From contig NC_030389.2 in assembly GCF_001625215.2 (NCBI RefSeq), positions 37,375,454-37,439,453 of the forward strand: DNA of 64,000 nucleotides, given 5' to 3'. Numbering within the stretch: position 1 is the first letter of the stretch; the number at the start of each line of letters is the position of its first letter. The DNA comes from Daucus carota subsp. sativus (taxonomy: Eukaryota; Streptophyta; Magnoliopsida; Apiales; Apiaceae). The notes beneath the pieces are model-generated. The model had not been told where the DNA came from, did not search any database, and saw nothing but the letters and a program-made list of their open reading frames with translations. Shown in pieces: positions 7,851 to 60,639 of the stretch. The position numbers were made by a program, and so were the translations under genes.

Positions 7851-7899
7851 AAGTTATTAAAATTATAATTTTCAAAAAATAAAGTTATTAAAATTATAA
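7851..7899 (+). mobile_element. Poly-A micro-insertion with 18-bp direct repeats
   Basis: AAGTTATTAAAATTATAA at 7851-7868 recurs exactly at 7882-7899. Between them lies only TTTTCAAAAAATA. An exact 18-bp duplication around an A-ended insert is the pattern left by LINE-driven retroposition, here with almost no cargo. Confidence 0.6.
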
Positions 7900-8375
7900 A
7901 TTAATTATTTCTTTTTCTGTTTTACAATGTATGGAGTATAATAATTCTATTATAAGAATATCGTTAAATGTATCCAGGTTAGTTGTATTTTTAAATTGTA
8001 CATTAAATTTTTTCATATCAATTTTGACTAAATAGTGAAATTTAAAAAACTTAACTTCACAAATGTGTAACAAATGTGTGTGTAACTGATTTGACTTAAT
8101 TGGTCGATTTGAAACCGTTTTGAGTTCGTTGATATATTAAGCTGACATTGACGACTAACTTGATTATTAACCCTTTTGCAACCGAAAATTGGGTAGCCAA
8201 TACGAAGTGCAGTCTTTTCCATATCGTGATCTAACAAGATATTGCTCGTGATCTAACAAAGATATTGCTAGCTTTGAGGTCCCTGTGGATGATCTTGAGA
8301 CGGCTAAACGTCATTAAAGCTACTCATATTATATTTCCAAGAGGCTAAACTCATATTAAAGTAATAAGTATAATA

Positions 8376-8873
8376 CTCCTTCCATCCTATTTTAAGTGTC
8401 CACTTTGCAAATTTCACACATCTTAAGAAACAATTAATGTAATATTTTTATCATTATCTTCACACACCTATTCACCTTGGTTTCTATAAATATTAATTCG
8501 GTTTTTCTATGGTGTGCCCATGGGCAAATGCTAAGCGCGGAAAATTTTGTGCTTGAAACATTTTGATTGGCTCCTATCTAATGATAATGGTGGACCCCCC
8601 TGCAAATACACCAACCAAACCAATCAAAATCTCCCAAAATACAAAAATTTCCGCGCTTAGAATGTGCCCATGGGCACACACTAGCCAAACCGATATTAAT
8701 TACGTATAGCACCACTCCTAGTGTGTATATGACCTTTCTTCATATTGGAACTAGTTGGTTGTATTTAATACTATATTAAAACTAGTTAAAAATTGCATGG
8801 GTTAAAAATTATGACACATATTTTGGGACTTCTTTTTCTAACAAAGTGGACACTTAAAATGGGATGGAGGGAG
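8376..8873. mobile_element. Stowaway-like MITE, outer element of a nest
   Basis: Ends CTCCTTCCATCCTATTTTAA (left) and, reversed, CTCCCTCCATCCCATTTTAA (right), with a TA at 8374-8375 and 8874-8875 as target duplication. The true length is about 300 bp; the rest is a second element inserted at 8499-8692. It lies inside the CRK pseudogene. Confidence 0.9.
8499..8692. mobile_element. Mutator-like MITE nested in the Stowaway element
   Basis: 194 bp with inverted ends of about 50 bp that start CGGTTT and contain the palindrome TGTGCCCATGGGCA followed by TAAGCGCGGAAA. The flanking ATATTAATT at 8490-8498 is repeated exactly at 8693-8701. A 9-bp target duplication points to the Mutator superfamily. 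Confidence 0.9.
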
Positions 8874-9463
8874 TATTACTTTGTGAAATTGCAGGATGTC
8901 CTCGTGCAAATCTCTTGATTGCAATTTCCTTTCCGTTCACTAGTGTACCCTGTAAGTGCATTCACAAAGTAAGAGCACTAGAGAGCTGTAAAAAGTAGGC
9001 TAACCCGAAAAAGTGGTCACCAGAATTACCTTGAAACTGGACCCAAAAGTCCTTCTCCCAGCTTGTTTTCCACAGAGAAGCGTTGTGTTGTATCACGCAC
9101 TCATCATACCATATGGCACCTTCTTTCTTATACTAACAGTCACTTAGTATTCTACCATTTGCTACATCAATGCAGAATGCAGTCCTGGCAAGTGTCTGCT
9201 GAAAGATCACCTCTGCACACGAAGAGACCGTATACTTTATCAGGATAACTACCTTCTGTGGCCTGATCAGAATTCGAACTACTCCCATGATCAAAAAGAG
9301 ACGCGAGGAGGCGATTAAGATTGTTCTGAAATTTGCTACCAGCAGTGTAGTTAGCAAACGTGTTGTCTTCGCACTTTGTGGCTAAGAAACTTTGAGACAT
9401 GACCAGGCTAGGGAACATGGTAAAACTCAGGAATGCAGCCAAGAAAACTTGGATACAGAACAT

Positions 9464-10585
9464 TTTTACCTGCTTATCTAATCTTCTCTTATCTCAGTGC
9501 TGATGCTTCTAGTATGTAATGTAAACATAGAAACACATGTATGTTTTTTTTTTTGAGGTCTTGGTCTTCTTCATCATTAACATCAGACACATAATTTCAA
9601 TGAATTTAAGGTAAGATTTGATAGGTTGGAGTTTGAACCCTCCACTTAGACACTTAGTGTTGTAAATGAGTCAAGACAAGACAAATTTGATCATGTAAGG
9701 TTCATTAGGACTTGAGAAAATTATCTGATTGGTGCTGCATCCTGTGCCGAGCCGAAAATTTTGTTTGAGTTTTTTACTGATAGATCGTTAACATGTCTCA
9801 CAATATTGGGGTTGGGAGGACTAGAACTCGAGATCCCTCCTTCAACCGAGCTCTCATACTTTTTCTTGACAACCAAATGGTTTCCGACCTACACTAGTAT
9901 CCAATTGACCTTCACTTGAGCCCATCTTCAGCCAGAACTATCATTATATCAACTGATGTTGGAACAACAAATGTCTCAAAATATAAACACTTTTTTTTGT
10001 GAAAAGTAAGCTCTCGCGTATCCACACTAACATCCCAAAGAGATGAGCACGACTAACAACATCATAATAAGGTAATCGAAAAGATCTCACCCAAAAAAGA
10101 TCAAGTCCAGGTTTTATTAAAATAACTGGTAAACAGAAGAGAGGATGGAGGAACAAAGAGGTTAATCGATGAGGGGATAAAAATCTGGAAAGTGGAGAAG
10201 TGGCTGTTATACTTTTTCCTGGAAGTTTAGAAGTTGGGTTGTGAAGATTAAATGTACTACCAGTATTGACTCTTTCTTGGAAATTTAGGGACAGATTTCT
10301 TGACGAAGAAGAACCTCGTTAGCATACATGACAAGTAATGTTAGTTGTTTGATCAATACTCAATAGCTAAGATGTATAGAACAGTAGCAGCAGGCAGCAG
10401 CAAGGATTGTTTAGCTAAACGATGGTATAAACCAAGGGAAATTGATAAATAATTCCAAATAGTTTTAGTCTGACTAGTTAAGAAACCATAGCCAAAAATG
10501 TGCAACTACGAACATTAGACGAACAGGGAATGACAAAAGACGGCCAAGGATCTCAAATGATCTGGCAAGAAAACCTACACATGGT
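9464..10585. other. Intergenic, no gene recognised
   Basis: About 1.1 kb between the CRK pseudogene and the DWF1 stop codon. It has a T12 run at 9543-9554 and a stretch at 9790-9850 with tRNA-promoter-like words on the minus strand (GAGCTCGGTTGAAGG, CGAGTTCTAGTCC), which could be a decayed SINE. No convincing open frame. Confidence 0.5.
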
Positions 10586-12763
10586 TTAATCTACTGGCAT
10601 GTCTACTTCTGCATAAGCCGTCTCAAGATGGGCTTGCTCGGCTTCCTGCACCTCCTTCTCAGTCTTCCTACCTTTCTTACACTTGTAGTACACACTCATA
10701 AATGTTCCGACAGCTCCATACTTCCTCCTGCACTGCTCATATAGCCCTGCATCAAACATCTTCCAGAAACTCTTCTCATTGAGCTCCGACACAGCATACT
10801 GTGGCTGGAAACCATGGTTTTCAATCAACCAGCTCTCCAAGCGACGGACAGCCTCAGCACCATCAAACTCCTCGCCCCTTAAGACAGGTCCAGGAGCATA
10901 GTAGACTCCAACATCTGTGTACATCTGAGCATAACTTGTGTCCCCCTGTCTTTGATGTAGCTCAAATCCTGGTTCAGGATATATCATCGTCTTGCAAGGT
11001 AGCTTGTACAGTTTGTGTGGGCAGAGCCAAAGTGGGTAAAGCTGTAATAACGATCAAAACATTGTCATTAGGTAGCCTGAACACTACAACTACTATCAGG
11101 TAGCTAGAAACCTAGAACAGTGAACTCGTCATGTAAAAATGAAATCTATGATCCTATCACTTCCCATTATTGTTTTCATATATAATCTTCTTAAGAAGTC
11201 GTCAGCATGGTCACTCTTAGTTGCATTAAAAGTTCCTTGTGACACAAACTCGTCATATGTGGATACATCCAGTATTCTAAAATGTTTTCTTACCGACCAT
11301 TCATCATAGATTAGTTTACATGATGTTATAACAGCCAGTTCGTCATCATATATGAATTAAATCTCAGGTCAGTAAGTTCAGATATTGTAATTTAGTCCTT
11401 TCTTTGAGCTTTTGATGTTCTGTCTTTGGTTGTATGCATGTGGGGCTGATATACAAAAATGTAATAATAAATAAATATATACCAAGGCATAAAAACTAGT
11501 TAGTAGAAATTTTACCTCCATTTCACGGTCAACAAACTCCAGAGCATCGCCAACCTTGTAAAGCGGAACGAGCATATCCTGAATGACATGCATTTCATGG
11601 TAGTAGTTTCTGATGGCTTCACCTTGAGTAGCCTTCAGCAAAGAGACCTTAGGTGGCATCAACCAACCAAGAGAATACCTAAACCACCACTGATCACCAA
11701 ATGGAAGGATGAGCTTCCCCTCCCAATACAAACACCTTGTGTGCCTGTGGTAGTATTCTCTGGTTGGAATGTACTCTACAAACTCACCTTTCGTCAATGC
11801 TGTCTCCGCATGCTGGTAGAACCATGGTTTAAACCACCATCCAACTTCGTTAATCTTATTGCCCTTCTTTTTAGCCTCTTCCTTTGAAGCATACCTTCCT
11901 GTCATGCAAACAGCTTCACGAGGATTGTAAATCATAGTCTCTACAAAGTCTGGCACCTTCTCATCATTATCTTGATCCCCATCCCTGGGTGCGAAAGAAT
12001 CAATGTAACCCTGTGCCAGTTCTTTTAAGTTACCTTTCACGGGTGTATATGTCAGCTTCATGTATTCCTTTATGGGTATCAGCTTGATCTCAGCTGAGAC
12101 AAGCAGACCCAAAGTCCCCTGAGACCATGGAATAGCGTAGAAAAGGTCGGAATATTCGTTGTCCTTTGTGGCTCTCACAACCCGCCCATCTGCTAGAACA
12201 ATCTCATAGGCAACAACAGTGTCAGCAAACAGGCCATATTTATGGGAGCTCCCCTCAATTCCATATCCATTAATGAGACCGCCAACAGTCAGATCATCGA
12301 GCTCAGCAACCACAGCAAGGGCAAGGTTCATTGGAACAGTGACCCTGGTGATCTGTCCCATGTTGACAAGAGGTTCGCATTTCGCGATCATTCTTTCTTG
12401 GTCAATTTCAAGAATGTTCCGGAAAGCGGAAAGATCAACCTCAAAATGTCGAGCACGCTTGTAGTCAACATTCCGCATTCCAACAGCAATGTAAGGTTTG
12501 CGGGCTGTGCACACAAGACCATCCTTTGATGGATTTCTTTGCTTGAGGCGTTTCACAACTTTCTTAACATTCTCATCATGCTCCTTCTGACGCTTCTCGA
12601 AGGACTTCCACTCTGATCTGACATCCCCGAGGTAGGTGAGGAAGTACAATGTGAAGGAGATGGGAAGGACGACAAAGATAACAATAATCCAACGGAAGTT
12701 GACAAAGTAATCGACCCATATCTTCTTCCTTTTGGGACGAAGTGGGGCCTCAAGATCTGACAT
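10586..12763 (-). CDS. DWF1: Delta(24)-sterol reductase DWF1/DIMINUTO
   Basis: Reduces the side-chain double bond of 24-methylenecholesterol to give campesterol, the precursor of brassinosteroids; a membrane-bound, FAD-dependent enzyme of the endoplasmic reticulum (family knowledge). Two coding exons, 11516-12763 and 10586-11041, give 567 residues, close to the 561 of Arabidopsis DWF1. Visible parts: a basic N-terminus with one membrane segment (residues ~24-47, IIVIFVVLPISFTLYFLTYL), then the FAD-binding type-4 domain (~110-250; AVVAELDDLTVGGLINGYGI), and a conserved C-terminal half (PLWLCPHKLYKLP, GFELHQRQGDTSYAQMYTDV, MSVYYKCKKGRKTEKEVQE). The exon junction reads REME-LYPLW. ATG at 12763 starts MSDLEAPLRPKRKK, as in other plants. 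The frame is intact, so it looks functional. Confidence 0.97.
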
Positions 12764-12786
12764 TATGAAAGACAGATGTCTCTACC

Positions 12787-14208
12787 CTGCTGAAATATAA
12801 AGCAGGAAAATATTAGGCAATTAGAACAAAACATATCAGGCACATCAGCAGTAGATGATTCCAACAATAAAGGAAACTGAATCACTATAAGCATTACAAT
12901 ACATATGTAATCTATCAACACACAGCAGATTTTATAATACCAAACATGTATTAATAACACATCATATATTGCTCGGTTGTCATGTCATATGACTTAAATA
13001 TCACATATATGCAAACACTTGAGATCGCCGATGTGAAAGGAAGAGTGAATATAACATTACCATCTATTTTCAAGGAAGTCCTGGTAAAGCCCACAAGAGC
13101 AAAGCAATGCATAGTGAGGAAACAAGCCCTTGTTTTACAACACATGTTGCTAATAAGTAATAACCGATTATAAATTATAAGATTACAACGAAAAGGAAGC
13201 ACGGGTGAGTGAAACGCACGCAGATACAGAAATGTGCCACTAGAAGTCTAAAACTGATCAGGTATCCATTACATAGCAAACAATTCAGATTTACTATAAT
13301 AGTCATACATTGCTAAAACACACTCCTTTCCAAGATCTTGCAGCAAGCGTGTAAAGAAGCATACGACAACCAAAAATCTATAAAACAGACAAGCAACAGG
13401 ACCACTGGCAAGTGGCAGGGACATATTATGTAGTGGACTGGAGCAATTGACCCCGTCGAATTTGCAATTTCATATAAAAATTAAAATCTACATCTGAAGT
13501 TCAAAATTATTGACCCCATCTCATTTAAATATTTAAATCCCATCTAAATTAATTGACCCTACTTAATTAATATATTAAACATTATTTGCTCACGACCCCG
13601 CCAATTACAATATTTTTTTCGGGTACTAGCAACACGACAGCTAAAATAGATCTGAGTGAATTCACATTCTTGCAGATCTGCGATTATTACATCAAATCAA
13701 ATTCAAACTAATCAACACAATGTCACTAAAACAAAGGATTAAATATAATTCCGTAGTAAATTAATCAACATCAATGAATTTACAGAACACGAGCATGTAA
13801 TCGTATCTATATCATAAAGAACATACTAGTTCTCCGGGGAGCTTGTTCGATAAAAATCAAGGGTTTTGCGTCAAACATGAGTGAATCAAAATTAATTCAA
13901 TCGCAGATCAAAGATCCATATCAGTTCACATTTCAACATTAATTAATCAACGATGAGATTCACCACAATACATGTAAAAAAACTGATTTAAAAAGACCTA
14001 AAACACATACATACATGCATACATATATATATATACGGATACAAATTCATATGTGAGAATTATGGCCATGGCATATATAGTGAGTGTACCTATTAATTGC
14101 TACAAATTTGATACTATATATCGCTAGACAAATATACAGATCAAGCCAGTGCGAGAGAGAGAGAGAGAGACTAGAGAGAGATGAAGGAGAGGGAGAGAGA
14201 GAGGGGGG

Positions 14209-14246
<38 letters not shown>

Positions 14247-14248
14247 AC
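12787..14248 (-). other. 5'UTR intron of DWF1
   Basis: Minus-strand acceptor (TTCAGCAG then GGTAGAGAC) lies 23 bases before the DWF1 ATG. A donor (CACGAG then GTATATCATC) lies at 14247-14248. The 1.46-kb intron starts with a long CT tract (GA on the plus strand). I see no other gene in it. Confidence 0.65.
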
Positions 14249-14276
14249 CTCGTGAAGAGTGAGAGAGAGAGAAGTG
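14153..14276. repeat. GA/CT-rich microsatellite in the DWF1 leader
   Basis: Long runs of GAGAGA, broken by short GGGAGG patches. Seen from DWF1 the CT tract lies in the inferred first exon and the first 100 bases of the UTR intron, around the 5' splice site. CT-rich leaders are common in plant housekeeping genes. Confidence 0.9.
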
Positions 14277-14333
14277 GGGGTTTAAGCTTGACTCAGTGAA
14301 GGGGAGTGAGCTACATTGATGTAGCTATCCAAG

Positions 14334-14341
14334 TATTTATA
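14334..14341 (-). promoter_or_regulatory. TATA box of DWF1
   Basis: Minus-strand TATAAATA. The CT-rich leader begins about 30-40 bases downstream, the normal TATA-to-start spacing. Between them is a palindrome, AGCTACAT-TG-ATGTAGCT (14309-14326). Confidence 0.65.
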
Positions 14342-14723
14342 CACAGAACTGTACTTTCATGGATTAATCATTTAGTCCTGTTCAATACTGTGACATTTTT
14401 TATGTTAAAATTATTATTTTAATTAGCAATCTCTAATTATATCATTATATTATATCGAATTCAAATCTAATCTAATTAATTTAATTTAAAAAATTTAATC
14501 AACTTATTTTTGTGCATAGCGATTTTGCATTATACAGTAAAATTTATACAATGTCATTTTATAGAAAATGGTGAGAAAAATGTATGGAAATATGTTTTTT
14601 CAAAACTAAGATGTATAAAATGCTAAGTAACTTTTCTAAAATTCTAGAACTAATTGATGAAAAATAATAAATTTTACCAACTATTGTTTCAAATAATATT
14701 ACATAAATTTTGGAAAATATATA

Positions 14724-15004
14724 ATCCCTCCGTCCCTCCCATTTCTTTACACTTTCTTTTTTGAGGTGTCCCATCCAATTCTTTACATTTCAAAACTTAC
14801 CAAAAATAGTTAATGGGTCCCACCACTTCTCCACTTTTCTTTCTTTTTCACACTACTTTTACTCCACTATCTTCTTTTTATACAATAAAAATCAATGGGT
14901 CCCACCACTTCACCCACTTTTCTTCCTCTTTTCCACTACTTTATACATATTTCTTAACCTCCGTACCCAACCCATTTGATAAGAAATGGGAGGGACGGAG
15001 GGAG
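14724..15004. mobile_element. Stowaway-like MITE
   Basis: Ends TCCCTCCGTCCCTCCCATTT (left) and, reversed, CTCCCTCCGTCCCTCCCATT (right), with TA on both sides (14722-14723, 15005-15006). The interior has two copies of GGGTCCCACCACTT. No coding capacity. Confidence 0.88.
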
Positions 15005-15989
15005 TATAAACCAAACACTAATTTTAGTGTTTTAAAATTAGCTTTTTAGATCCAAACCAGAAAACCAAAACTTCTAACCCAAACAACTCGTCAAAGTAGT
15101 TTTTTAAAAATTAGCTTTTTGGATCTAAACCTCTACTTCAATCTGCTAACTACCAAACACTAATTTTACCAGATTTTATTAGTCAAACCTCTAAAACACC
15201 TCAAACCTCTGATTTTGCCTCAAACTTCTAATTTTCAAAGAAGGCCTGTAGACAAATGTATGCTTCCTCCGTTCTGTCATTGTTTATACTGTGCGACGGG
15301 ACCTGACACACATTTTAATATTCTCATATAATATAATTTAATAAATTATTTTGAATTTATTTTCTGAATAAAAATGAAAATTTAAATTTTTATATAATAT
15401 TTTCCTAAAAAAAAGTTATGAAACTATATTGCATTTTAATTATAAAAAAAATGAGAGAGATAAAAACAGTATACACATGTAAATAATCAGTTGAATTTTC
15501 CGATGTATGTCCTTAGCACACTATCAAAAAAAATTTGATAGATGTTTCAGCCTTATTGATAATCTTAACAATTATAATGACCTCTATATAAAAAAATCAC
15601 ACCAATCAAAATTTTACGTGAAAGATAGACATAGTTCTTAGAAAGACCCATCATAATATCTACTGGAATCGGAGAAATAGGAGTATTAGAGTGGAATAAA
15701 TAAGACGAGATCCCGGCCCACGGAGAAAAAGATTCGCATCATTACGGACGAGTTGAGCTGGAGGGTAACGTTCATGTCCGACAGCCTATAAATCACGTGA
15801 GGTCCCGACGAAATTCGATTTTTTATTATTCTTTTCAAGTTTAAATTATTGATTTTGGATCTGTATCCTAACTTAAGAATAATAGTATATTATTTTCTCC
15901 ATGATTTTAAAGTACGGAATGTTGAGTTGGAATAAATCAATTCATTAATCAAATCAGTAATTTTATTGATGATTTTTTCAATAAATCAT
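15005..15989. other. Intergenic, decayed repeat only
   Basis: Holds a stretch at 15262-15480 starting TGCTTCCTCCGTTCTGTCAT that resembles the decayed Stowaway-type family seen again at 43283 and 46660. No gene recognised. Confidence 0.5.
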
Positions 15990-16000
15990 ACTTAGCTTTT

Positions 16001-16637
16001 TTTTTTTTTTTTTTAAGAAAAGAAAATAATTCATTAAATAATAGCCATACGGCATCTACAAGAATGATCGAATCGAACAAATATAGAAAAAATTAACATG
16101 CTTGTCTTCATAGCCAAGATGAGACAAATAAGCGATGTTGAAATTGACGATGGTACATGTATAGATCCTTGCTCTGTGTTCACCATCTTATTCAAAAACT
16201 CCGTTTGAGCTATCAACCACAAATGCAATTCCCGAGAGCTTTTATCGATGAATCCAAACCAACTCTCACAAAAGAGGAGAGAAAATCACACGCTCTCACC
16301 AAAGAGAGAAATCAAACTATAATCAAAATAAACTAGAGAAAATCCAACTAAAAACTAAAGCAATTAGATCTGCACCACGACACGTAAGAGATAATCGATC
16401 CACCCACAAATCCAAAAAGCCCTCTGGAAGCGAATAAGAACGAAAATCAAAAGTTCCCGTGATATAGATCTAAGAAACTTTCCCTCTTGAAGAAGGAGAT
16501 TTATTAAGAAAATCAATGGAAGAAGCAAGAACAATAAGAACTAGCAATCAAACGGAAAGATTTGGGGCTTTCCACCGGAAAACCGATGGAAGCCCCGTCG
16601 AGAATGAAAAGAGGGAGGCGGTTAGAGAGAAAAAGAA
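16001..16637 (-). mobile_element. LINE-like retroposon relic, internally shortened
   Basis: The insert is flanked by an 11-bp direct repeat, ACTTAGCTTTT, at 15990-16000 and 16638-16648. On the minus strand it begins with a CT-rich leader (ACCGCCTCCCTCTTTTC), has the leader word CCGGTGGAAAGCCCC, and ends in GAATTATTTTCTTTTCTT followed by a poly-A run. About 640 bp is too long for a plant SINE and too short for a full LINE. A leader joined to a short 3' end, with no endonuclease or reverse transcriptase sequence, suggests an internally deleted L1-type element. The family assignment is inference. Confidence 0.65.
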
Positions 16638-16648
16638 ACTTAGCTTTT

Positions 16649-17553: not shown

Positions 17554-17561
17554 GTGGACAG

Positions 17562-18225: not shown

Positions 18226-18521
18226 GTGGACAGTATGTACAGACCAATTAGCCACTATGCCAAACATGTGAATTGTGATTTGTGACCACTCATATAATAG
18301 GTGATTAGGTGGTGTCCATAAATTAATAATCGCATATATTATCAATTTATAGGAATTAAATATGTGTTATTTTTGTTATTAAATAAAAACTGAACATAAA
18401 ATTTCCGCATGTTAGATACGCCCAAAGACACATTTCTGGATATTTTAACAAGTGGGTATCTTTATATACACGATTAATCACCGATTAATTCCTATTCCAC
18501 AGCTCGCCGAACTGATTAAGA

Positions 18522-18983
18522 GGGGTGTATTGGATTGAGATTTTAAAGCATTTTTTTTGCATTCATGAAATCCGAGGGTATTTGATTGAGATTGTTTGAA
18601 ATCCATTAAAATCTTGAGGTATTCAATTGGGATTTTAAACTATGCTACAAAATCTAGTGGTATTCAATTGGGATTTTAAATTATGCTTTAAAATCCGATG
18701 GTATTCAATTGAGATTGTTTAAAATCCATTAAAATCTGATGGTATTCAAATGCTGATGGATTTTTTTTCATTTCATAAAATGATGGATTTTGTGGCATTC
18801 TTCAGTGTATTTTAAGTTTTTTGAAATCCCACCAAATTCAATGGGATTTCGAAGCATTGTACCTAAATCCTATCAACTCTGCGACATTTCATCAAGAATC
18901 CGCAAAAAATCAAAATCCTATACAATCCATTAAAATCCATAGACTAAAAACAATGCATTAAAATCCCAATCGAATACACCCCC
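18522..18983. mobile_element. MITE with GGGGTGTATT ends
   Basis: Ends GGGGTGTATTGGATTGAGAT and, reversed, GGGGTGTATTCGATTGGGAT. The interior repeats the word ATTCAATTGGGATTTTAAA several times in both orientations. The target duplication could not be made out, so the superfamily is open. Confidence 0.75.
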
Positions 18984-22658: not shown

Positions 22659-22678
22659 TTTGCTTCAATTTCATGAAA

Positions 22679-26650: not shown

Positions 26651-26703
26651 AATTGCTGATCTAGTTTTTCTGTCAAAAAAAAAAGAATTAATGATCAAGT
26701 TTT
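26651..26703 (+). mobile_element. Poly-A micro-insertion, diverged direct repeats
   Basis: AATTGCTGATCTAGTTTT (26651-26668) and AATTAATGATCAAGTTTT (26686-26703) match at 15 of 18 positions. They flank TCTGTC-A10-G. Confidence 0.45.
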
Positions 26704-27267: not shown

Positions 27268-27314
27268 AAATATTATTCTCATACCTGACCAAAAATAAAT
27301 AAATTATTCTCATA
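27268..27314 (+). mobile_element. Poly-A micro-insertion, short repeats
   Basis: ATTATTCTCATA occurs at 27272-27283 and 27303-27314 (12 bp identical). The insert is CCTGACCAAAAATAAAT. Confidence 0.4.
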
Positions 27315-27320
27315 ATTAAT

Positions 27321-27370
27321 AAGTAATGCCAAAAATATTTTATTCCAAAAAAAAGTAATGCCAAAAATAT
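27321..27370 (+). mobile_element. Poly-A micro-insertion with 18-bp direct repeats
   Basis: AAGTAATGCCAAAAATAT at 27321-27338 is repeated exactly at 27353-27370. Only TTTATTCCAAAAAA stands between. It lies 7 bases after the previous micro-insertion. Confidence 0.6.
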
Positions 27371-37984: not shown

Positions 37985-38089
37985 GATTCTAGCTTGTTGC
38001 AGATGGCGATTTAGGGCTGAATAAACCTCAGCTACTCCTTTAAATATAAATAACAATCATAATGTCTTCGCCTTTCTGTACTGTTTATA

Positions 38090-38369
38090 CTCCCTCCCTC
38101 ACAATCAATTCTATACAGTTTTTTTTTTTGGATGTCCTATCATTTCTATACATTCCCAAAATAGCAACTTTTTATAATATAAAACACCATGGCAAAAAAA
38201 AAAAAAAAAACACCATTACACCCCCTACATTCTCACACTATCTCTCTTATAAAAAATATGCGGGTCCCGCCATTTTAACCACTTTCCATCTAACTTTACT
38301 CATTTCTTACACTTTTTTTTAGTCTCCGTGTCCGATCCCGATGTATATAATTCATTGGGACGGAAGGAA
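38090..38369. mobile_element. Stowaway-like MITE upstream of the SDR gene
   Basis: Ends CTCCCTCCCTCACAATCAAT and, reversed, TTCCTTCCGTCCCAATGAAT, with TA on both sides. It lies about 100 bp upstream of the SDR start codon and itself carries a poly-A micro-insertion. Confidence 0.8.
38181..38216 (+). mobile_element. Poly-A micro-insertion within a MITE
   Basis: AAAACACCAT at 38181-38190 recurs at 38207-38216. The insert is GGC followed by about 13 A. The repeat length is uncertain because its first bases are A. Confidence 0.4.
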
Positions 38370-38880
38370 TACTATATTATCTCAAGAGAAAATGCATTTT
38401 GGACATCCACATTTTAGGTATTTATCGCACTTGCAATACTATATTTAGAAAACCTCTGATTACAATATTATTTTTCAAGATTCTTTCTTAATTTGTGTAC
38501 TTCCATCAAGTGTCGCTAACCGAGTTAAAATACAAAAACGATAAGAGTATTGAAAGTGTTGTAAAGTTTAAAGTGCACATACAGAAAATTCACTTTTATC
38601 TATGTCTGTTTAGCACCTTTAGTGAAAAATACATAAATTATGAAAAATCTTGAAGAGCACTGAAAGTATAATATTTTGAAATATGTTTTAATTTACAGTT
38701 AGAAATAGACTCAATATGAGCGAGAAAATGATAAATTAGGAGGATAACTTTATATTATTAAAATAGATATGAGAGGATATGAAGAATTCTTAAACTGATT
38801 TTTGACTCAAAGTCTCTCTAAGTTCTATATATGACCATGTTTTCTATATTTACATTTAAAAGCTCATTGAATAATTTTTT

Positions 38881-41234: not shown

Positions 41235-41290
41235 AATAACTGCTTTAACCTTTTTTTTTTTTTTTTGTGAAGATAATAACTGCTTTAACC
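41235..41290 (-). mobile_element. Poly-A micro-insertion with 16-bp direct repeats
   Basis: AATAACTGCTTTAACC at 41235-41250 is repeated exactly at 41275-41290. The insert is T16 then GTGAAGAT; read on the minus strand, ATCTTCAC then A16. Polarity is therefore clear. Confidence 0.65.
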
Positions 41291-41584: not shown

Positions 41585-41785
41585 GCCAAGAAGCCGCTTC
41601 TAGTATCTGCTTTTCTTGACCCGTTTATGTAAAGAAGTAGAAGCATTTTTAAAAAGCTGAGAATACTAGTTTATCTCTCTTTATTTTCCAAACACTTTAT
41701 TAAATTATTTACTTCTTATTTCTACTCCACTTCTTTAATTTAAGCAAGAAATCACTTTTTCTAAGTTAACCCAAACGGCTCCTAT
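41585..41785. mobile_element. MITE-like element with CCGTTTGGG end
   Basis: Reversed, the right end reads GGAGCCGTTTGGGTTAACTT, with CTTGCTTAAATTAAAGAAG and GTGGAGTAGAAAT inside. The same words occur in the element at 48072-48316, so both are one family. The left limit is approximate. Confidence 0.55.
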
Positions 41786-42499
41786 ATATGCAAATTTGAA
41801 AAAATCGGTTGAAGATTACATTTAGTTACATAAAATTAGAGATGATCTGTGAAGTTAAAATTACTTATAATAATTTACACTCTATCTGTTTTTGAAATTT
41901 ATTTTTACAAAATTTGAATATAATTATTATAAAATAATTTATAATTTATTATCATTATATTAATAAACTTTTATATAAATTTTTTATCCAAATATATAAA
42001 TCAAAAATTATCTTTTACTAATCAGTCCAACTTTCTGCATAAGAGTATCTTAAGACTAGATACTAAGACAACAAATAATGTATTTGAGAAGGTAGAACTA
42101 CTTTGCACAGTGAAATCAACCTGCTCTATTCTAGTCCTTTGTATATATTTTTAACTCTCATAAAATATAATTTCATAAATAATTTAAATATTTTTTAAGT
42201 GAAAATATATTAGTTAAATTATTATTTAAGAATACATTTTTTAAATTTATAAAATTATATTTTAAAAAGATATTTATAATATTTATTAAATTATATAAAA
42301 GAATCTGCATAAAAATAAGTGGGAAAGTTCTCCTCTCAATTGAGTAACTTGTTCACAGTTCACACTGTTCTGCAAGCCCATGAATAGACATTAGCTGATT
42401 AGCCCATGATTGAATACGCGGGATAACCTTGTTATGCGACGACTGACCAGCTTTTTGTGTGGGCGTCCTTATTTCTCCGCTGTTCAAATATATATTCGG

Positions 42500-42795
42500 T
42501 CTTGAATTGTATACAGTTTTCGTTTTGAACGTATCATTAATTAAGTTTGTATAATATAAAAACTTAACTACACCCACTATTTTCTTCCACTACACCCATT
42601 TTATACCTTAAATATTAGTACGTCACAACACTTTACTCACACTACACTCATTTTACCCATTAACCCATTAACCCATTAAATATTAATCAGTCCCACCACT
42701 TCACCCATTTTTCTTACTTTTCATCACTAAATTACACTTTTTCTTAATTTCCGTGCCACTCCTCATATGTATACAATTCATCGGGACAGAGGGAA
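42500..42795. mobile_element. Stowaway-like MITE, left end decayed
   Basis: The right end reversed reads TTCCCTCTGTCCCGATGAAT then TGTATAC; the left keeps GAATTGTATACAG. The interior has CCCACCACTTCACCCA as in the element at 14724. Borders are approximate on the left. Confidence 0.6.
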
Positions 42796-43282
42796 TAGAT
42801 TGTTTTGGATTCATTTGTTTTTAAAGATACTTCGATACAAGATACTCTCTCTTTCTATATACGTTTCTTGTATGATGTCACTATTATTCATAACACGAGA
42901 CAAACTACTAATTTACGTCTAATTTATAAGACTAAAAGTGATCTGGTTGGATTCATATTTATAAGTACTTTAATACTTTAATACGGTTCTGTCAAAAATA
43001 AATAAATTACTACGGTGAAACTTTTATATTTAGTACTAATACAAAATTAAAGATATTGACAATAATGTGTGTTGACAAACGTGATAAAAGTAAACATGAA
43101 ATGTATTAAGAGACGGACGATTATCAATTTTTAGAATTCAAATCATAAAAATATTTGAAATTTAATTTTAACAAGAATAAGTGTAATTTTTAGAAAGTAC
43201 ATATTTATGTTATTTTTAAAAATAAATAATTTAATCATAAAAATGAGATAAATTAAACTCATATTATTTCACTAAAATTATA

Positions 43283-48316: not shown

Positions 48317-48386
48317 AATATTTGGAGCCATTTTTCTAGATGATATTTGGTACATTATTTTTCAAACTTGTGAGATAAAGGGCGAC

Positions 48387-51330: not shown

Positions 51331-52349
51331 AAGGTGAGCTACTACGAAGAAACTCCTACTGAGATGACCTTGTTTTCTTGGCAGGTTTTGCATCAGCTCC
51401 TTACTACATTTCTTGAATTTTTCAGATAAATTCAGTGATTCGGGATCTTCATCAAGCGCTGGCACTGGAGGAAGAGGAGTTTGTCAATTTCTGTATCATA
51501 TATAGAAATGGAATAATGTTACATGTTAAACTATTTATAGCAGATGTTAATATAGATACCTACTTCTTCAATGTTTTAATCTTCACTTTCTACCTGTTAT
51601 TGTTTGCCATCTGAGTACTGCATAATATTATTACTTCAACTTTTTATCAATTCTGCATGAACTAAAAATCATATGTCGTTCCATCTACAACGTCGTCTGG
51701 TCTCGGATGTATAACATCCCCTGCAGAACAAGTTACTAATTATATCATTACTCGTTTCTTGGTCGGACTCAGACAGGTCTAGACTAGCCATACCCTGAAT
51801 TGGACTCTGCTAGCAAGATTTCTAAAAATAGTGTAAATTTGAGAAGAATTTCAAGTGATACATATAGTCATTATGCTTGACTGTGTTCATAGGCTTACCA
51901 GCTGGTTGACCATTAGTATGAGAAATTCATGGAGCTAAAGAGAGAGAATTGGAACATGACTATATATAACCAGGCCAATTTTGCATGGACTGTATTCTTG
52001 CAACACGAATACACAGGAGTGACATCCAATACACTCTGTCGTGTTCGATTTATAATACAAACATATTTGTGTTCTGACAACTAACCCTTTCTATAATTAG
52101 CAAAGTTTAGAGAGTCTTGATGTCTGATTATTCTTTTGCTCTGTCAAAATGTGCATAAACAAGAGTGCAATACATAAACACGAAGCGAAGAAACCATTTT
52201 TCTGTTTTTGACTGTCAGATTCTACATAAACAAGAATGCAAAACAAACACACAAGAATGAGATCACCTATCTGTTTCTGATCATCTTTTCGGTTGAGCGT
52301 ATACTTTTAGACGAGGAACATAGGGGACGAGGACTTATTTTTTGGGACA
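51331..52349. other. 3' region of the receptor gene and promoter of CHX
   Basis: No gene or element recognised. The CHX leader probably lies in the last 150 bases. A repeated word AAACAAGA(G/A)TGCAA(T/A)A occurs at about 52157 and 52226. Confidence 0.45.
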
Positions 52350-54950
52350 ATGGGGGGCGGTGGAGATACCTCAGGGAAATGTTACAAGCCTATGGCTGCC
52401 ACATCTAACGGAGCGTTCCAAGATGAGAATCCACTTGATTACGCTCTTCCCCTTGCAATTCTGCAGATATGTCTGGTAGTCATATTTACGAGGGTGCTTG
52501 CTGTGATGTTAAGGCCTCTCAGACAACCTAGAGTCGTCGCAGAGATTATTGTGAGTTATTCAATTTGTTTACCTTACACTAATATCATTAGTAAGTACTA
52601 ATTGCGATGTATCTGTTTCTCTCAATTTAATTTCTAACAAAATTGAAACTGATTGCAGGGAGGTATACTACTTGGTCCATCTGCAGCAGGGAGAAGCGAA
52701 AAATTTCTAGACAGAGTTTTCCCGAAAAAGAGCTTAACAGTTCTAGACACTCTAGCCAACTTAGGCCTCCTATTCTTCCTGTTTCTTGTTGGCCTTGAGC
52801 TTGACATGCGTCAAGTTCGTCGAACAGGCAGCAAGGCCTTGGCCATTGCCATGGCAGGGATAGGCCTCCCTTTTGTCATCGGCATTGGTACCTCATTCAT
52901 TCTACGTTCCAACATATCTGAAGGAGCCAAACATGCTCCTTTTCTTGTCTTCATAGGGGTGTCTTTGTCAATCACAGCCTTTCCTGTTCTTGCTCGAATT
53001 TTAGCTGAGCTAAAATTGTTGACAACTGATGTCGGACGGATTGCAATGTCAGCTGCAGCAGTTAATGATGTTGCTGCCTGGATTCTGCTGGCATTGGCTA
53101 TAGCATTGTCTGGAGATGGATCTCCTATAATAGCTCTTTGGGTTTTGCTCTGTGGCGTTGCATTCGTGGTGGGCGCGTTTGTGATCTTAACGCCTTTCTT
53201 TAGTTTCATTTGTCGTCGAAGTTTGGAGGGGGAGCCAGTGAAGGAGTTGTATATATGCATGACATTGGTGGTAGTTTTGGCCTGTAGCTTTGCGACAGAT
53301 ACCATAGGAATTCATGCATTATTTGGGGCTTTCGTGGTTGGAATTGTGGTCCCGAAAGATGGTCCTTTTGCAGGGGTTCTGATAGAGAAGATTGAGGACA
53401 TTGTAGCCAGCCTTCTGCTTCCACTGTATTTCGTGTCAAGTGGCTTGAAAACAAATGTGGCGACGATAAGTGGAGGAACGTCATGGGCGATGCTAGTCCT
53501 TGTTATCTTTACTGCTTGTTTCGGCAAGATTGTTGGGACAGTAGCAGTGTCACTTGCCTTCAAGGTGCCCTTTCGCGAGGCCCTTGCAGTCGGATTCCTC
53601 ATGAACACAAAGGGATTGGTTGAGTTGATTGTTCTCAACATTGGAAAGGATCGAAAGGTACATACACTTATTAATTAGCCCTCTTGAAATGATGCTGCCA
53701 TTCTTTTGTATTAAGCATTTGTGTTATGATTGCAGGTGCTGAATGATGAAACATTTGCAGTTTTAGTCCTTATGGCCCTGTTTACTACCTTCATAACGAC
53801 TCCGATTGTGATGGCTGTGTATCATCCAGCTAGAAAGATAGCACCATACAAGGACAGGACCATTCAAAGGAAGAATCTTGACACAGAACTCCGCGTGTTA
53901 ACCTGCTTCCACAGTAGCCGGAACATTCCCACTATCATAAATCTGATTGAGTCTTCTCGCGGGACTAGGCGTAAGGGGCGTCTTTGTGTATATGCTATGC
54001 ACCTAATGGAATTATCAGAACGGTCCTCAGCCATCTCAATGGTCCATAAGGCAAGAAATAATGGTCTTCCCACCTGGAACAAGAAGGCTGATGAAAAAGA
54101 TACAATGGTCATTGCCTTTGAGACCTACCGCCAACTCAGCAGTGTCGTTGTCCGCCCTATGACAGCCATTTCAGAACTTTACAACATTGATGAGGACATC
54201 TGCGCAAGTGCTTCACAGAAGCGGGCTGCAATGATTATACTCCCATTCCATAAACACCAACGTGTCGATGGTGTGATGGAGTCGCTAGGCCACTCGTTAC
54301 ATCAAGTAAATCAAAGAGTCCTTCGTCGTGCTCCTTGTTCAGTTGGCATTTTAGTTGACAGAGGATTAGGAGGCACAACTCAAGTCACAGCTAGTGATAT
54401 CTCCTTCACAATTGGGGTACCATTTTTCGGGGGTAAAGATGATAATGAGGCACTTGCTTATGGTGCAAGGATGGCTGAGCATCCGGGGATTTCACTCACA
54501 ATTGTAAGGTTTGTGACTTCACCAGAAACAACAATGAGGAAAGTCTGTGGATTAGACGATGGCGGGTCTAAGCATCCAACTCCAAAATCTGACAGCAACA
54601 CTATTGAGAGCACTGATGATCTCCTCTCTGAGGTCAAAACCAGGAACGCGGCTACTGTGTATGAAGAGAAGATGGTAGCAAGTAAAGAAGATATAATCAC
54701 CGCTTTAAAAGATATGAACACGTACAATTTGTTGCTAGTCGGAAGACTCCCACTAGATCTACCTAATAAGTTAGTCAAATCCAGTGACTGTCCAGAACTT
54801 GGACCAATTGGGAGCTTCATGGCTTCTCCTGGATTTTCCTCCACCACCACCTCAGTGCTGGTAGTTCAGCAATATGATCAATTTACAACGCCTCAACTTG
54901 TGGCTGAGGACGATGGTCAATTGCCTGAGATGCCAGATACACCAGTCTAA
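52350..54950 (+). CDS. Cation/H+ antiporter, CHX18/19-like
   Basis: Three exons, 52350-52550, 52659-53657 and 53736-54950, all in phase 0, give 804 residues. The N-terminal half is the CPA2 exchanger domain with about 12 membrane segments: [20 protein letters not shown] across the first junction, [20 protein letters not shown], and the ion-site pair in [16 protein letters not shown] (Asn-Asp). From about residue 430 on comes the soluble tail with two USP-like halves (AIILPFHKH-type motif as [39 protein letters not shown]). Arabidopsis CHX17-20 proteins move K+ and protons in prevacuolar, endosomal and plasma membranes, affecting pH and K+ balance (family knowledge). The frame is intact and the intron places fit the family. 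Confidence 0.95.
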
Positions 54951-55575
54951 TATCCTACTCGGAGGATGTTAAATAATTGAACATCTCATTCAACTATGTT
55001 AGAACCCTCGCGCTTCCTGCTTTCTCACTCACACTTCTAGTATAAATTGGCTACTGCTCGTGATACAAAATTTGTCAGGGAACCTAGTCGATGGAGGTAT
55101 ACAGGACTAACTGGATTCAGAGGCTCCGCGACCTAGGTGTAAAAAATAGAAATAACAAGACATCCAACCACTTCAGCCACATTTTCACAATTCATTACTC
55201 ATAACCCTGACAAACTTGTACAATGAACAATGTATGTATGAAATAAAGCACTCTTGTATGAAATCACACGGTTACATCTATGAAGAGATTATCAATAAAC
55301 ATCTGTCTGCAACTGATATATGGCCATTTTACATACCTTCAATTACACAAGTAATCAAGATCAAATGATGAATATGTTATATATAGTAGGCTCAAGTTAT
55401 ACAAGAACTCAATTACAAGTAGTCTTAGATCAAGAAAATAACCAATAAAGGCTGCTTAGCTACCATCTAAGGATCTTAATGACATTGTGCAGCTAATAAT
55501 ATAACACCTCGAAAGGCCAAATCATATGCATCATGTGTATCTATATACTAATAATTTGTTAACTACTAGGCTCGC
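54951..55575. other. Convergent 3' ends of CHX and HYH
   Basis: About 620 bases between the two stop codons. It should hold both 3'UTRs. No element recognised. Confidence 0.5.
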
Positions 55576-57214
55576 TTAACTACTTTCATCAGTTTTAGGC
55601 CGAGTGTTCAGGAGCACCTGTAAGAGATTAAACATAAAAAAGGCTCTTGTTAATTATGCATTTCATTAATCGTATTACTGCAGACTTGCAAGTCTCTTTT
55701 CTGATGTGAATTAAGATAGGGATGTAAAATTGAGTACCTTTCTGAGCATTGTATTTTCGTTTATGAGAGTTGAGATCTTCTCTTCAAGCTTAGAGTTTCT
55801 GTCCTGCAACTCAGTAGCTCTAGACTCAAGATCACTAACATACACCTTCTTCCTTTCTCGGGCTTGTTGAGCTGACACTCTGTTCCTCAGCAACCTTTCG
55901 TCATGCACAATTGATTGAGATAAGTATTCAGTTAATTACTCTTACACAGTACTCCTAATTATATTTCAGAAATTCAAGAACTTAACATGTGTTTCTTGTT
56001 TATGTGTCAATATGTTCGCTTACTCTCAAAAACGACGAATTAAGTGAAGTTTGACACTTTGTTCACTTAAGAACTCTCTTATCAAAGGTACTATATTAGG
56101 AGTAGTGGTTAAAACACAGAGACATAATACTTATGTGCTACTAATAAGTACTATAAGTGAATGAGGTATGCACCTCTTAAGTCTTCTGTGCTCTCTATCG
56201 ACGGGGTTACGACCCCTTCTGCGTTTTCCAGTAGTCTGCTGATCATCTTTATTATTATTACCACTGCCAGCAACATTGCTCTTGTTTTCGGTATTGAAGT
56301 CCTTCTGTTCCATTTTTGCAGCTGCCACTTCTGGAGCTTCAATGTCAGGAACTGTAAACATATCTTCATCGCTTTCTTCTAATTTATACATATTTATAAT
56401 CAAGCAAAATCTTGTATTGATTAGATTTAGGCACAGAAAGGTAACTATTTTACATGAATATATTACCTCAGTTAATCAACTTAAAACATAAATATATATA
56501 ACAAATTTCACAATACTACCTGTTAATTGATCCACTTAACAAAATATATTTCCCTTATCATTCTAGCCTAAATTTGTTTATATAGTGCCTATTAAATGTT
56601 ATCCCACAATCAAATCCTGAAGATCTCAATAGCAAAAAATATGTCACTTTTAGAGTAACAAGTCCTCTCTTCTTTCATACACAGTTCAATTATGACAGAG
56701 ACATGTAATTTCTATTAGAATATAATGTGATCCTGATAAGCCCTCCTCCTAACACCTCGAGAATTTAGTAGAATTGCTCACTTAATTAACAAGCTATTCG
56801 ACCCAAAATTGGGTTTTCGAGGGCGGATAACACTCCTCCTAACACCTCGAGATTTTAGTAAAAATCGGTCAGTTAACAAATTTCACAATGCATTTACTAT
56901 TTTTCAGCAAGGTCCTAGTCTTCTAGAAAGCCAAAAATGAGGTGCTAAAAATTTTCAGACACAAGTATTCCAAAGTACGTGCATGAACATGAGCCACAAG
57001 AACCAAATGCATGTCCCATACGTAAAAAAAACTGCACATTACCAAGTTTACCCTTGCTATGCAGAGGCAGAGGGAAATGAGCTGCGCCAGCATTACTATT
57101 CTTCCAAGAAGACGAAGCCGAGTTAGAAGAGCCGCCAGTGCCACCACCATGCAGATCATAGTTGGCCTTCGATGCACCCGATGTCGACGACGAGGCCGCG
57201 GCTGAGGGGTCCAT
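55576..57214 (-). CDS. HYH: bZIP transcription factor HYH (HY5 homologue)
   Basis: Positive regulator of photomorphogenesis that binds ACGT-core sites and is degraded through COP1 (family knowledge). Four exons, 57043-57214, 56174-56378, 55738-55894 and 55576-55617, fit in phase and give 191 residues. Visible parts: a Ser/Gly-rich N-terminus, the COP1-binding motif [12 protein letters not shown] at the start of exon 2 (acidic run plus VP pair), the basic region ([30 protein letters not shown]), and a Leu zipper ([20 protein letters not shown]). The end [10 protein letters not shown] and the [10 protein letters not shown] stretch resemble HYH rather than HY5, whose tail is Gly-rich. The junction of exons 2 and 3 within LKR-LLRNRV is the place typical for this family. 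The ATG at 57214 gives [10 protein letters not shown]. Confidence 0.93.
56743..56860. repeat. Direct repeat in HYH intron 1
   Basis: CTCCTCCTAACACCTCGAGA followed by (A/T)TTTAGTA occurs at 56743-56770 and 56833-56860, 90 bases apart, with one difference. Confidence 0.85.
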
Positions 57215-57941
57215 CACAGCTAGCTGCTGAGAGGTCTAGTGTTTGTGGGGGTTGGAGAGAATGAGGAGTGGATTTATATGGGAGATATTATGAGGAGAAA
57301 GAGGTGATGAAGAGATATATGAGAAGGGGGGCTGGTGGGTTTTGTACTGCAGAGTAATGTGGGTGGAGGGCTGCACTTTTGTGTAGGGCTTGTTTGGGCA
57401 TTCATATATTGGTCTTGGATTGGACACGTTCATCTTCGTTTAGCCGTTACTCTTTTTTTTCTGTTTTGATTTCGGAGGATATTTTGTGGTATGATATATC
57501 TGGTTCAATAAATGGGACTATGGGAGGGTGGATGATGTTTATTTATTTTATGATTTATGTTACCTACCTGATTATATTTGAAATTTTATTTTCGAATACT
57601 CTTATAAACAAACGATTGATTCTAAATCTGTGATTTTTGGTTACACGTAAATTCTTTTGTTATTTGTGGCACTAACAAACATTATTTATTATGATGTGGA
57701 AAAAAATTAAAAATATTTTTGAGGTAACTATAATTTTTCATATTCTTTTTTGTGAATAAAAATATTAATGTTATATTTGTATTAAAAAAATAAATTTTTA
57801 AAAATAATATTCGTTAGTGTACGGGCAAGCCGGCCAAAAAAATCATACCATTTTTATATCCAACAAAAGTAGTTGTGATTTCTGAATTCTACGATCATAC
57901 TACAAAGTACAAACATGTGAAACAAAACAAAGGATATGATT

Positions 57942-57993
57942 AAGATTCGCATAAATATTCATTTCAAAAAAAAAAAAGATTTGTATGAATATT
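57942..57993 (+). mobile_element. Poly-A micro-insertion, diverged direct repeats
   Basis: AAGATTCGCATAAATATT (57942-57959) and AAGATTTGTATGAATATT (57976-57993) match at 15 of 18. The insert is CATTTC then about 10 A. Confidence 0.5.
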
Positions 57994-58149
57994 TGAACGG
58001 ATACCCTCCTCTATAACCATTGCAAAATACAAACTTGTTTTTAAGTAAATAAATATATTAACAAATAAATATTCACCTAAAAATGAATGTTGTTTTGTCG
58101 CGGTTCCAGAATAGTGAATCTGTATTGCATGCATTTTACAATTTGAGTA

Positions 58150-58262
58150 TCTGTTGATAATCGAGTTGAGCCAGAGTCGAACCCAGAACCTGGGCCAACA
58201 GAGAATAAACCCTTAACCATTTGAGCTATTCAATCGTGCTCGGATTTATACTTCTAAATAAA
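58150..58262 (-). mobile_element. tRNA-derived SINE head
   Basis: Minus strand: TAGCTCAAATGGTTAAGGG (box-A-like) and, about 35 bases on, GGGTTCGACTCTGG (box-B-like). Spacing and order are those of a tRNA promoter, but no cloverleaf can be drawn, so it is not a tRNA gene. Ends and flanking repeats could not be fixed. Confidence 0.5.
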
Positions 58263-58586
58263 ATAAAATGAAAAATAATATTTACAAACATTAAAATGCG
58301 TTATGTGACAGAGAGAGGGGAGTAATTGATCAGAGAGACCCTGCCGCCGGGGATCCAAACTAGAACAACGATGAAATCTCACGGAATATGGAGTGTTTCA
58401 AGAAACCCAGTCAAGTTCAGAATGCAAGTCTCCTTTCTGTCTTCTTACACTATATTATTTCTTTCGAGGATAATTTGTGGGTATTTGATATTGCAGCCCA
58501 ACTGCTGATAATTTTGTTCCAGTTCGTCTTGATATTGAAATTGATGGTCAAAGATTCAGAGATGCTTTTACTTGCAACCCTTCTGG

Positions 58587-58670
58587 TCTCTCTCTCTCTC
58601 TCCCCCTCTATCTCTCTCCCTCTCCCTCTCCCTCCCTCCCTCTCTCTCTCTCTCTCTCCCTCCTTATCTG
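58587..58670. repeat. CT microsatellite in BSH intron 2
   Basis: TCTCTC runs broken by CCCTC and CCCT units, starting directly at the exon 2 donor (58586). Confidence 0.9.
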
Positions 58671-60590
58671 TATAATTATTTGATTTTTTGGATGATTAAT
58701 ATGGTACTATAAGAACTGCTCACATTCCAAGATTTGCTTAAAGAAATTAAATTATCTGTTTTTCAGCATTGTGGCAATACTTTACTATCTGCATGATTTT
58801 GGCTGATGGGGTTGTTTATTTAAGTATACATAATCAAATTACTATGACCAACAAATAGGAAATGTGAAACATGCCATATTGGCTAATGTTTAGTATCAAA
58901 GAGGTGTTGCGGGTTTCATGAGACATTACTGGCAGAAATGTATGGTAGAAAAAGCAAATGCTACAATAGATAATCTTTATGAATGTCGGTTTATAATTCG
59001 TTTGTTTGCCGCGTTATCTATTAGATGGAAACTATGTATGTATCATAAGTCAATGTTGCATACTGATAGATTACAGTATTGATACTGGATAAATTGATAA
59101 TACATCAGAATTGAAAATGTAAAGTTTATTGTGCAACAGAATTGAAAATGAATGTTTCTTTGTTCTCGTTTAACTTCTACTCTTCCTGGGTTCTTCTGGC
59201 ATGAAGTAATTGAAAATTACTGAAACCTTTCCCCTTGACAAGTTCAAGGGTATACTTTAGAAAAACTATGTAACCTTCGAAAAACATCTAATGCAAATAA
59301 CTGATATAATCTTAATAAAAGCTGTGTCCACATCTTTCATTACTCGTGACTCTGAGAAATACTCAATACAATTTACAGAATTTTTCAATTAAAATATTAT
59401 CAGGGGGGCATAGAATATATTAGGATACCCCTTTTCTGTTTATTGATCCTTCTACCAATTCAGCATAGATTACAAAAGGTTCAGGTGCTAGTTTATAAAT
59501 TCACTTACGTTGTGTATTAAAACTTTTCATGCTTCTGTTGTACAATATGAGATGCCTATCATTAGGCCAGTCACCTTTCTATTGCTAGTATCTTCCTTTT
59601 TTAACAATTATTTTAATGAAGCTGGTTCTTGATATTGATAATGCCTACATTGCTTTACCAGCATAGAACATCATATTGTTTGCATTGGTGTTGTATGAAT
59701 ACATTTACTTGTTTATTATGTGACCTATGTCTCACTAAAATATCTTTTATCTTACATAGATACGGATTCAGAGGTGGTGGCGTTTGCAAAAAGAACTGTA
59801 AAAGACTTAAAGCTTCCACCAGCATTTGCAACACAGATTGCTCAATCTATTCAATTAAGCCACCTTTCTTAAAGGTGCTCATATGTCAACTGGTTTCTAC
59901 TGCTATATAGACTTCATTAGTTTCTTTTATAGTTAATTTTAGATTATTATTAAGAGCATCTCTATAATTTGAATAAATGGCATTAACCAATGAAGGTGCA
60001 TATGAGGTAATAATAATATCATTGACTTTGCAGCTTGATACTGTTCGCTGCTCCCTTTGGTAGTAGTCAAATCATGTTTTGATTTAATTATTATAATGTG
60101 TTCCTGACATAGCTAGACCTTCTAAAATTCACACCAATTCTGTAATAGACTGCCTAGATAATTTGTTTTGGCGTATTTTGACTGTGTAAGGACAACTTTA
60201 ATGAAAAGTAGGTATATCTTTCAGTTTTCGGTTTAATGAAGTTAAAAGGGTGGGGGGGAAGTGCAATTTATGGTGTAAATGCAACTCGCGTCAGAAAACC
60301 AGAAGTTGCTGGCCTACCTTGTCTTAGGTCCTAGTTAAGATATTTATGAATGAAGATTGTTTTCATTCTTATGGAACAACTCACAATTATTGTTAACTAT
60401 ACATATTTGTATCCTTGAAAAGTGTAATTGCATAGTAAGTTACTAGAAACAAACTTGTTTCACATTAGTCTTCTATCATGGAAACTGGAACCAAAGGAGA
60501 CCTGAGTATGGGCATGGGCAGTACTGTTATTTATAAGATATACTATGTGAGCTAAATCCTTTGTTACTTTTATCTCAACTTAATCATTCT

Positions 60591-60639
60591 AATCATATTT
60601 GCTGCTTCTGACAAAAAAAACAAATCATATTTTGCTGCT
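60591..60639 (+). mobile_element. Poly-A micro-insertion in a BSH intron
   Basis: AATCATATTTGCTGCT (60591-60606) and AATCATATTTTGCTGCT (60623-60639) differ by one T. The insert is TCTGAC-A8-CA. Confidence 0.55.

Follow-up and report, generated by a model that had tools for sequence, protein, structure and literature searches.

Micro-insertion sites in the carrot window

A stretch of 64,000 nucleotides (nt) of Daucus carota subsp. sativus (contig NC_030389.2, positions 37,375,454 to 37,439,453; the whole 64-kb stretch is called the window hereafter) carries a recurrent class of very small inserts, here termed micro-insertions, in which a head of a few nucleotides followed by a run of A is bracketed by the two copies of a direct repeat. 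The gene content of the window is plant-like, with PPR, LRR, CHX antiporter, and SDR domains and a match for nine of the ten open reading frames scanned. An earlier sequence-only reading of the window had listed nine such sites, and on re-reading of the letters every one was present as described, including the three exact repeats of 16–18 bp (18 bp at 7851, 18 bp at 27321, and 16 bp at 41235). The sites, together with the miniature inverted-repeat transposable element (MITE) that hosts one of them, are as follows:

7851..7899, plus strand: micro-insertion with an 18-bp exact repeat, head TTTTC, and A6 (tail AAAAAATA)
26651..26703, plus strand: micro-insertion with a 19-bp diverged repeat, head TCTGTC (recurrent genome-wide), and A10; score 11.5
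27268..27314, plus strand: micro-insertion with the 12-bp exact repeat ATTATTCTCATA, head CCTGACC, and tail AAAAATAAATAA
27321..27370, plus strand: micro-insertion with an 18-bp exact repeat, head TTTATTCC, and an A run of 6–8 (shared A's)
38181..38216, plus strand: micro-insertion GGC-A17 in a MITE copy, its repeat being only CACCAT and the leading A's; empty sites exist in paralogous MITE copies
41235..41290, minus strand: micro-insertion with a 16-bp exact repeat, head ATCTTCAC, and A16
42977..43015, plus strand: degenerate candidate with an imperfect repeat, head TCTGTC, and tail AAAAATAAATAA; score 8.5
57942..57993, plus strand: micro-insertion with a diverged repeat (three mismatches), head CATTTC, and A12; score 8.5
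60591..60639, plus strand: micro-insertion with a 16/17-bp repeat containing one indel, head TCTGAC, and tail AAAAAAAACA; score 11.5–13.5
38086..38371, no strand assigned: MITE hosting the 38181 insertion, with ends TACTCCCTCC..., homologous to L024:8938-9253

A C before every A run, also claimed in that reading, holds for the nine listed sites but not as a rule, as T-ending heads (TCCTT, TGATTCTAT, and ATCT) occur among the sites of the wider sample described below, where the base preceding all A-runs of at least 8 is C in 69 cases, T in 49, and G in 42.

Polarity of the inserts and chance controls

The genome scan for A-run polarity that had been proposed as a check was run on 304 kb of the 441-Mb genome (11 contigs), made up of the window and 24 stretches of 10 kb taken mostly at round coordinates. 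The scan asked whether the sequence 3′ of an A-run is copied just upstream of the insert, with T-runs treated likewise and permuted upstream sequence serving as controls. For runs of at least 6 and a score of at least 10, there were hits at 22 of 722 A-runs versus 4 of 722 T-runs, and three permutations gave 0, 3, and 1 hits for A and 0, 2, and 1 for T. Gapped scoring with a run of at least 6 and a score of 11 returned 20 of 713 A-runs versus 3 of 713 T-runs, and the strict form of the gapped scan (head of 2–12 nt, run of at least 8, score of at least 11) returned 10 of 158 versus 0 of 159, with a permutation mean of 0.15 and a maximum of 1 over 40 shuffles, which bears out the statement that chance does not suffice to explain the repeats. 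Six of the ten strict hits lie inside the window. Two of these were discounted, namely 38119 (minus strand, AGGACATCC-A11), which is native MITE sequence found also in L024 and at 14720-14795, and 23522, a doubtful case with a T-rich repeat, leaving eight strict sites with four inside the window. The A-versus-T counts therefore indicate that the polarity is real and present beyond the window, and inserts of a short head and an A-run between duplicated target DNA are confirmed as real and recurrent across the genome.

Empty sites

Empty counterparts of the filled sites were sought among paralogues inside the same genome. The homologue of the 38181 MITE at L024:8938-9253, aligned by eye, has neither the GGC-A17 insert nor the second repeat and carries extra sequence of its own at the equivalent place. 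A 20-mer joining the flanks of the 38181 insert has 520 matches with at most two mismatches (three exact) versus 6 for the reversed 20-mer, the MITE identity of each match being unchecked, and these MITE empty sites mark 38181 as an insertion. Judging from the 520 matches, copies of this MITE may number in the hundreds. MITE copies with TACTCCCTCC-like ends lie at 38086-38371, 14720-14795, and 42690-42797, with related stretches in the window, and we take the ends and the family to be Stowaway-like.

The joined flanks of 13 other sites were queried in one search, in which 40 of 1842 candidates were scored. L035 (TTCTGAC-A12, 8-bp repeat) has 28 insert-free paralogues across the join, in which the genomic span differs from the query span by no more than one base; one lies inside the window at 41675-41789. 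L028 (ATTTAGC-A11, 15-bp exact repeat) has one empty paralogue, which covers 155 bases per 164 query bases; this partner, G000:C4:24995059-24995213, lies about 6 kb away and forms a datable empty/filled pair. Within this scored subset (40 of 1842), the other 11 queried sites gave only self-matches. Insertion is thus shown at three sites (38181, L035, and L028).

A shared head and its parent family

The head TCTGNC followed by A12 occurs at 282 places genome-wide, whereas the reversed pattern occurs at 11 and the scrambled GTCTNC-A12 at 14, with five of the scrambled matches in one cluster. By hand count, the 100 listed among the 282 comprise TCTGTC (75), TCTGGC (20), TCTGAC (4), and TCTGCC (1). 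TCTGAC-A10 occurs at 40 places versus 7 for the backward pattern, and among 10 of these that were read, four have repeats, with scores of 12.5, 11.5, 9.0, and 8. A sample of 20 was formed from the first listed TCTGTC-A12 and TCTGGC-A12 places in order, all on C1, with one TCTGAC row passed over. In 14 of these 20, a repeat of 11–18 bp with a score of at least 9 adjoins a head of about 6–7 nt; three others (L045, L051, and L060) continue into the end of a parent element, L057 has a 7-bp repeat with a score of 7, L059 has a weak 5-bp match, and L047 is undecided. Of 380 mismatched pairs, none reached score 9 and 15 reached score 7, and in a comparison sample of A18 runs (the first 20 listed of 2602, all on C1) 2 of 20 and 4 of 20 did so, respectively (Fisher p 0.0002 for the TCTG(T/G)C sample versus the A18 sample). 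The 17 TCTGTC sites in the sample include 11 micro-insertions (12 with L057) and three parent copies, a ratio of about four micro copies to each parent copy among the long-tailed TCTGTC sites of C1.

The parent, here called family A, is a non-coding poly(A) repeat of roughly 710–760 nt that ends in CAAGTGNATTTCTGTC-A(n). It was first read in the L012 copy (minus strand, 3107 to about 3866, 764 nt). A 596-nt query representing the 3′ part of this copy gave 41 rows, with 40 of 784 first-look candidates scored; because the query stops just past the tail, these matches by themselves do not establish the 3′ boundary. The position of the A tail is fixed by CAAGTGNNTTTCTGTC-A12, which has 25 exact matches in the genome, 61 with at most one mismatch, and 0 reversed. 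The length estimate follows from an upstream extension (40 of 73 candidates scored), where 35 of the 40 listed rows start 116–168 nt before the start of the 596-nt query. A near-identical copy at a distance of 45 kb reaches further upstream and is presumably a segmental duplication. The family A sequence has no open frame of 90 amino acids, and CGAGCAAGTG lies near the end of L012, L045, and L051, the three copies in which this part was read. The L012 copy also contains an intron-like TTTGTTTCAG/GT, and there are hundreds of candidate family copies.

These matches point to family A RNA, or an RNA with the same 3′ end, as the probable template of the TCTGTC head. The proposal of a single source RNA for the shared (T)CTG(A/T)C-A(n) end accordingly stands for TCTGTC, which is the 3′ end of family A, and fails for TCTGGC and the other heads; no TCTGGC parent was found among the 61 CAAGTGNNTTTCTGTC-A12 matches, so this head may have another source. 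The further suggestion that the source is a short interspersed nuclear element (SINE) was not upheld as regards a tRNA-type SINE, since the L012 copy (764 nt, the sole copy examined) has no tRNA-type RNA polymerase III B box, strict or relaxed, and its one A-box-like match, at position 411, is not near the 5′ end. Sadhu-type retroposons of Arabidopsis are non-coding, shorter than 1 kb, and poly(A)-ended, and family A is possibly a Sadhu-like retroposon.

Two further parent families were considered and dropped. A candidate for CATTTC came from L068-L070 (G000:C1:1169518-1193657), where three C-A18+ runs have similar sequence ahead of each, and it has only six genome hits, three of them in one cluster; with three exact hits at C1:1169100-1170015, the end looks like a small local array, not a dispersed family. 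The other candidate (L082, ...CCCTGAC) is a single locus only.

Insert length and the position of the boundary

When the upstream search in the 304 kb was extended to 3000 nt at score 11, heads of 0–12 nt gave 19 A hits versus 6 T hits, those of 13–30 nt gave 3 versus 0, and those of 31–80 nt gave 9 versus 4, with near parity in the further classes up to 3000 nt (12/11, 10/12, 14/9, 19/16, and 18/17). Several T hits in the 0–12-nt class are, in our reading, the same sites viewed from the opposite strand, and the longer-insert hits look mostly like tandem arrays. The survey thus leaves ordinary truncated copies of SINEs and long interspersed nuclear elements (LINEs) with intact repeats inconspicuous in the sample and the micro class conspicuous. 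The broad range of body lengths left by randomly 5′-truncated LINEs was likewise absent from the 20 TCTG(T/G)C-A12 sites, among which there was no clear intermediate, L047 and L059 being undecided.

Across the 14 sites with a repeat, the tail varies from 13 to 19 nt (the search had excluded tails shorter than 12), yet the head stays at about 6–7 nt. The boundary therefore appears to be anchored to the template sequence and not to the length of the complementary DNA (cDNA), which argues against random drop-off as well as target-side trimming of the cDNA; either an enzyme that halts at one set position or a template shortened to that position beforehand would fit. Heads without a known parent are also mostly 5–9 nt long, a length that speaks for a property of the enzyme complex and less for that of a single RNA.

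Proposed mechanism

The micro-insertions were very probably made by target-primed reverse transcription of the L1-type LINE kind that stops a few nucleotides past the tail. This reading draws on the polarity, the 11–18-bp duplications, the start of the duplication with A after a pyrimidine, the empty paralogous sites, and the abundance of L1-type LINE domains. In a tally of the 16-site list minus the parent copy L060, 15 of 15 micro sites have a duplication that opens with one or more A's, the preceding base being T in 10 and C in 5; this is a relaxed form of the TT/AAAA-like nick site, and some sites have only one A. For the LINE zf-RVT domain (PF13966), there were 150 scored hits among 1372 first-look candidates, some of them in open frames of more than 1200 amino acids and the longest of 1768. 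A LINE-type target-primed origin with an early stop had already been suggested from the window alone; the origin is supported by the polarity, the duplications, and the empty sites, while the cause of the stop is a matter of inference.

The enzymology inferred for such an event would begin with an L1-type LINE enzyme nicking the target at a pyrimidine/A site, after which the exposed target end would prime synthesis at the poly(A) tail of a template RNA. The cDNA would end a few nucleotides, usually 5–9, past the tail, so that the head would represent the last few nucleotides of the template RNA, and completion of the second strand would leave a duplication of about 11–18 bp. For the stop itself, the preferred guess is an abortive step, with the reverse transcriptase or some other bound factor still anchored just upstream on the RNA. 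It is tentatively proposed that reverse transcription of the L1 type in plants passes through an early abortive phase, as in the abortive initiation of RNA polymerase, in which the anchored enzyme copies the tail and about 6–7 nt and often falls off; the stub would then integrate with a normal duplication, and the footprints would outnumber the long parent copies.

Several observations weigh against this account. The A-over-T excess shrinks at looser thresholds (24 versus 11 for a run of at least 6 and score 9), so the polarity is weaker there, and the repeats have diverged at window sites 26651 (score 11.5) and 57942 (8.5). At 5 of the 14 sites, the aligner entered the head by 1–4 nt and the 6-nt boundary was set by eye, and the TCTGNC sample was preselected for heads of 6 nt or longer and tails of 12 or longer. 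No parent was established for heads other than TCTGTC. Folding of the 3′ ends of three family A copies gave structures that differ, with no consistent stem at the stop (z −1.4), and it is this disagreement that makes the cause of the stop conjectural.

Alternative explanations

Target-primed reaction on already shortened templates, namely putative 3′ RNA stubs left where 5′-to-3′ decay is halted at a bound enzyme, is a possible sub-variant that is held with some doubt. It gives the same template-anchored boundary, and the DNA evidence is equal for the stub version and the abortive one. Addition of nontemplated nucleotides by the reverse transcriptase after copying of the poly(A) tail alone would account for heads that are short and often pyrimidine-rich and could suit some heads without a known parent, but it is improbable overall, given that TCTGTC is the commonest form at the TCTGNC-A12 places and coincides with the end of an actual element.

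End joining of staggered breaks can leave a short filler between direct repeats of comparable size; in this case the filled-in 5′ overhangs would form the repeat, with a short A-rich filler between the copies. The sequence-only reading had named this rival and remarked that it would not predict a C-A(n) polarity, and it now appears very unlikely, as neither the observed A-run polarity (10/158 versus 0/159) nor a common TCTGNC head 20-fold over the scramble is predicted by it. The polarity and the head sharing refute filler repair as a general cause; single sites could be filler. Chance direct repeats or local tandem duplications, arising where AT-rich DNA holds simple A-runs, would suit 38119, the doubtful 23522, and many longer-insert hits in L021, L025, and L027 that look by eye like tandem arrays, but as an account of the class they are dismissed as most improbable given 10 observed hits versus a permutation mean of 0.15, 0 of 380 mismatched pairs versus 14 of 20 sites, and empty counterparts at three sites.

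The candidates in L021, L025, L027, L013-7181, L032+3207, and L029 were set aside because they look like tandem arrays or dispersed repeats, a reading made by eye and not with a repeat finder. Within the 10 kb that make up L021, TACAAGTTGTTTTTAACTTCAAAC units are repeated many times in a satellite-like manner. The window itself contains a tandem array at 18568-18749 (41-bp unit, 4.4 copies, about 77% matches) and long simple repeats of GA and TC at 14153-14240 and 58587-58662.

Relation to known systems and significance

Related events have been described in other genomes. In the dog, the passages on RPGRIP1 describe an insertion with a 29-nt poly(A) tract and a 15-bp duplication on either side, with no element body mentioned there (PMC3520932); it is presented as a single disease allele with no recurrent head, whereas the carrot class has many copies with a common head and boundary. 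Retrocopies made by L1-like machinery in dicots have a TTAAAA-like target, a poly(A) tail, and duplications of 13 bp, 15 bp, and, with low identity, 17 bp (PMC4838847); L1-like machinery is thus at work in dicots, but the body is a gene transcript in those cases and about 6 nt in carrot. L1-clade LINEs end in poly(A), and one plant lineage has a conserved stem-loop at the 3′ end whose stem is followed by CGAG (Ohshima, 2013; PMC3747384); family A is comparable in having CGAGCAAGTG near its end, but a common stem-loop was not established from the three copies folded. Truncated LINE copies are placed there in the range of 100–1000 bp (PMC3747384), in contrast to the body of about 6 nt in the carrot inserts. 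A literature search on the insert class and on carrot SINEs, by title and abstract opening and with most subscription papers outside its coverage, found no description of a recurrent six-nucleotide retro-insert among the papers listed.

The mechanism itself is already known, and what is new is the discrete boundary and the finding that micro copies are apparently commoner than their parent. Rough extrapolation from the eight strict sites in 304 kb, a weighted sample in that four of them lie in the window, suggests a possible 10^4 members per genome as an order of magnitude. Such inserts are easily missed in annotation because they carry no recognisable element. If the proposed origin is true, they would constitute a countable genomic footprint, or fossil record, of abandoned retrotransposition and would show that a cDNA of only a few tens of nucleotides is enough for integration to be completed, a point of relevance to the later, poorly understood half of LINE integration as well as to the origin of plant A-runs and of many small insertions.

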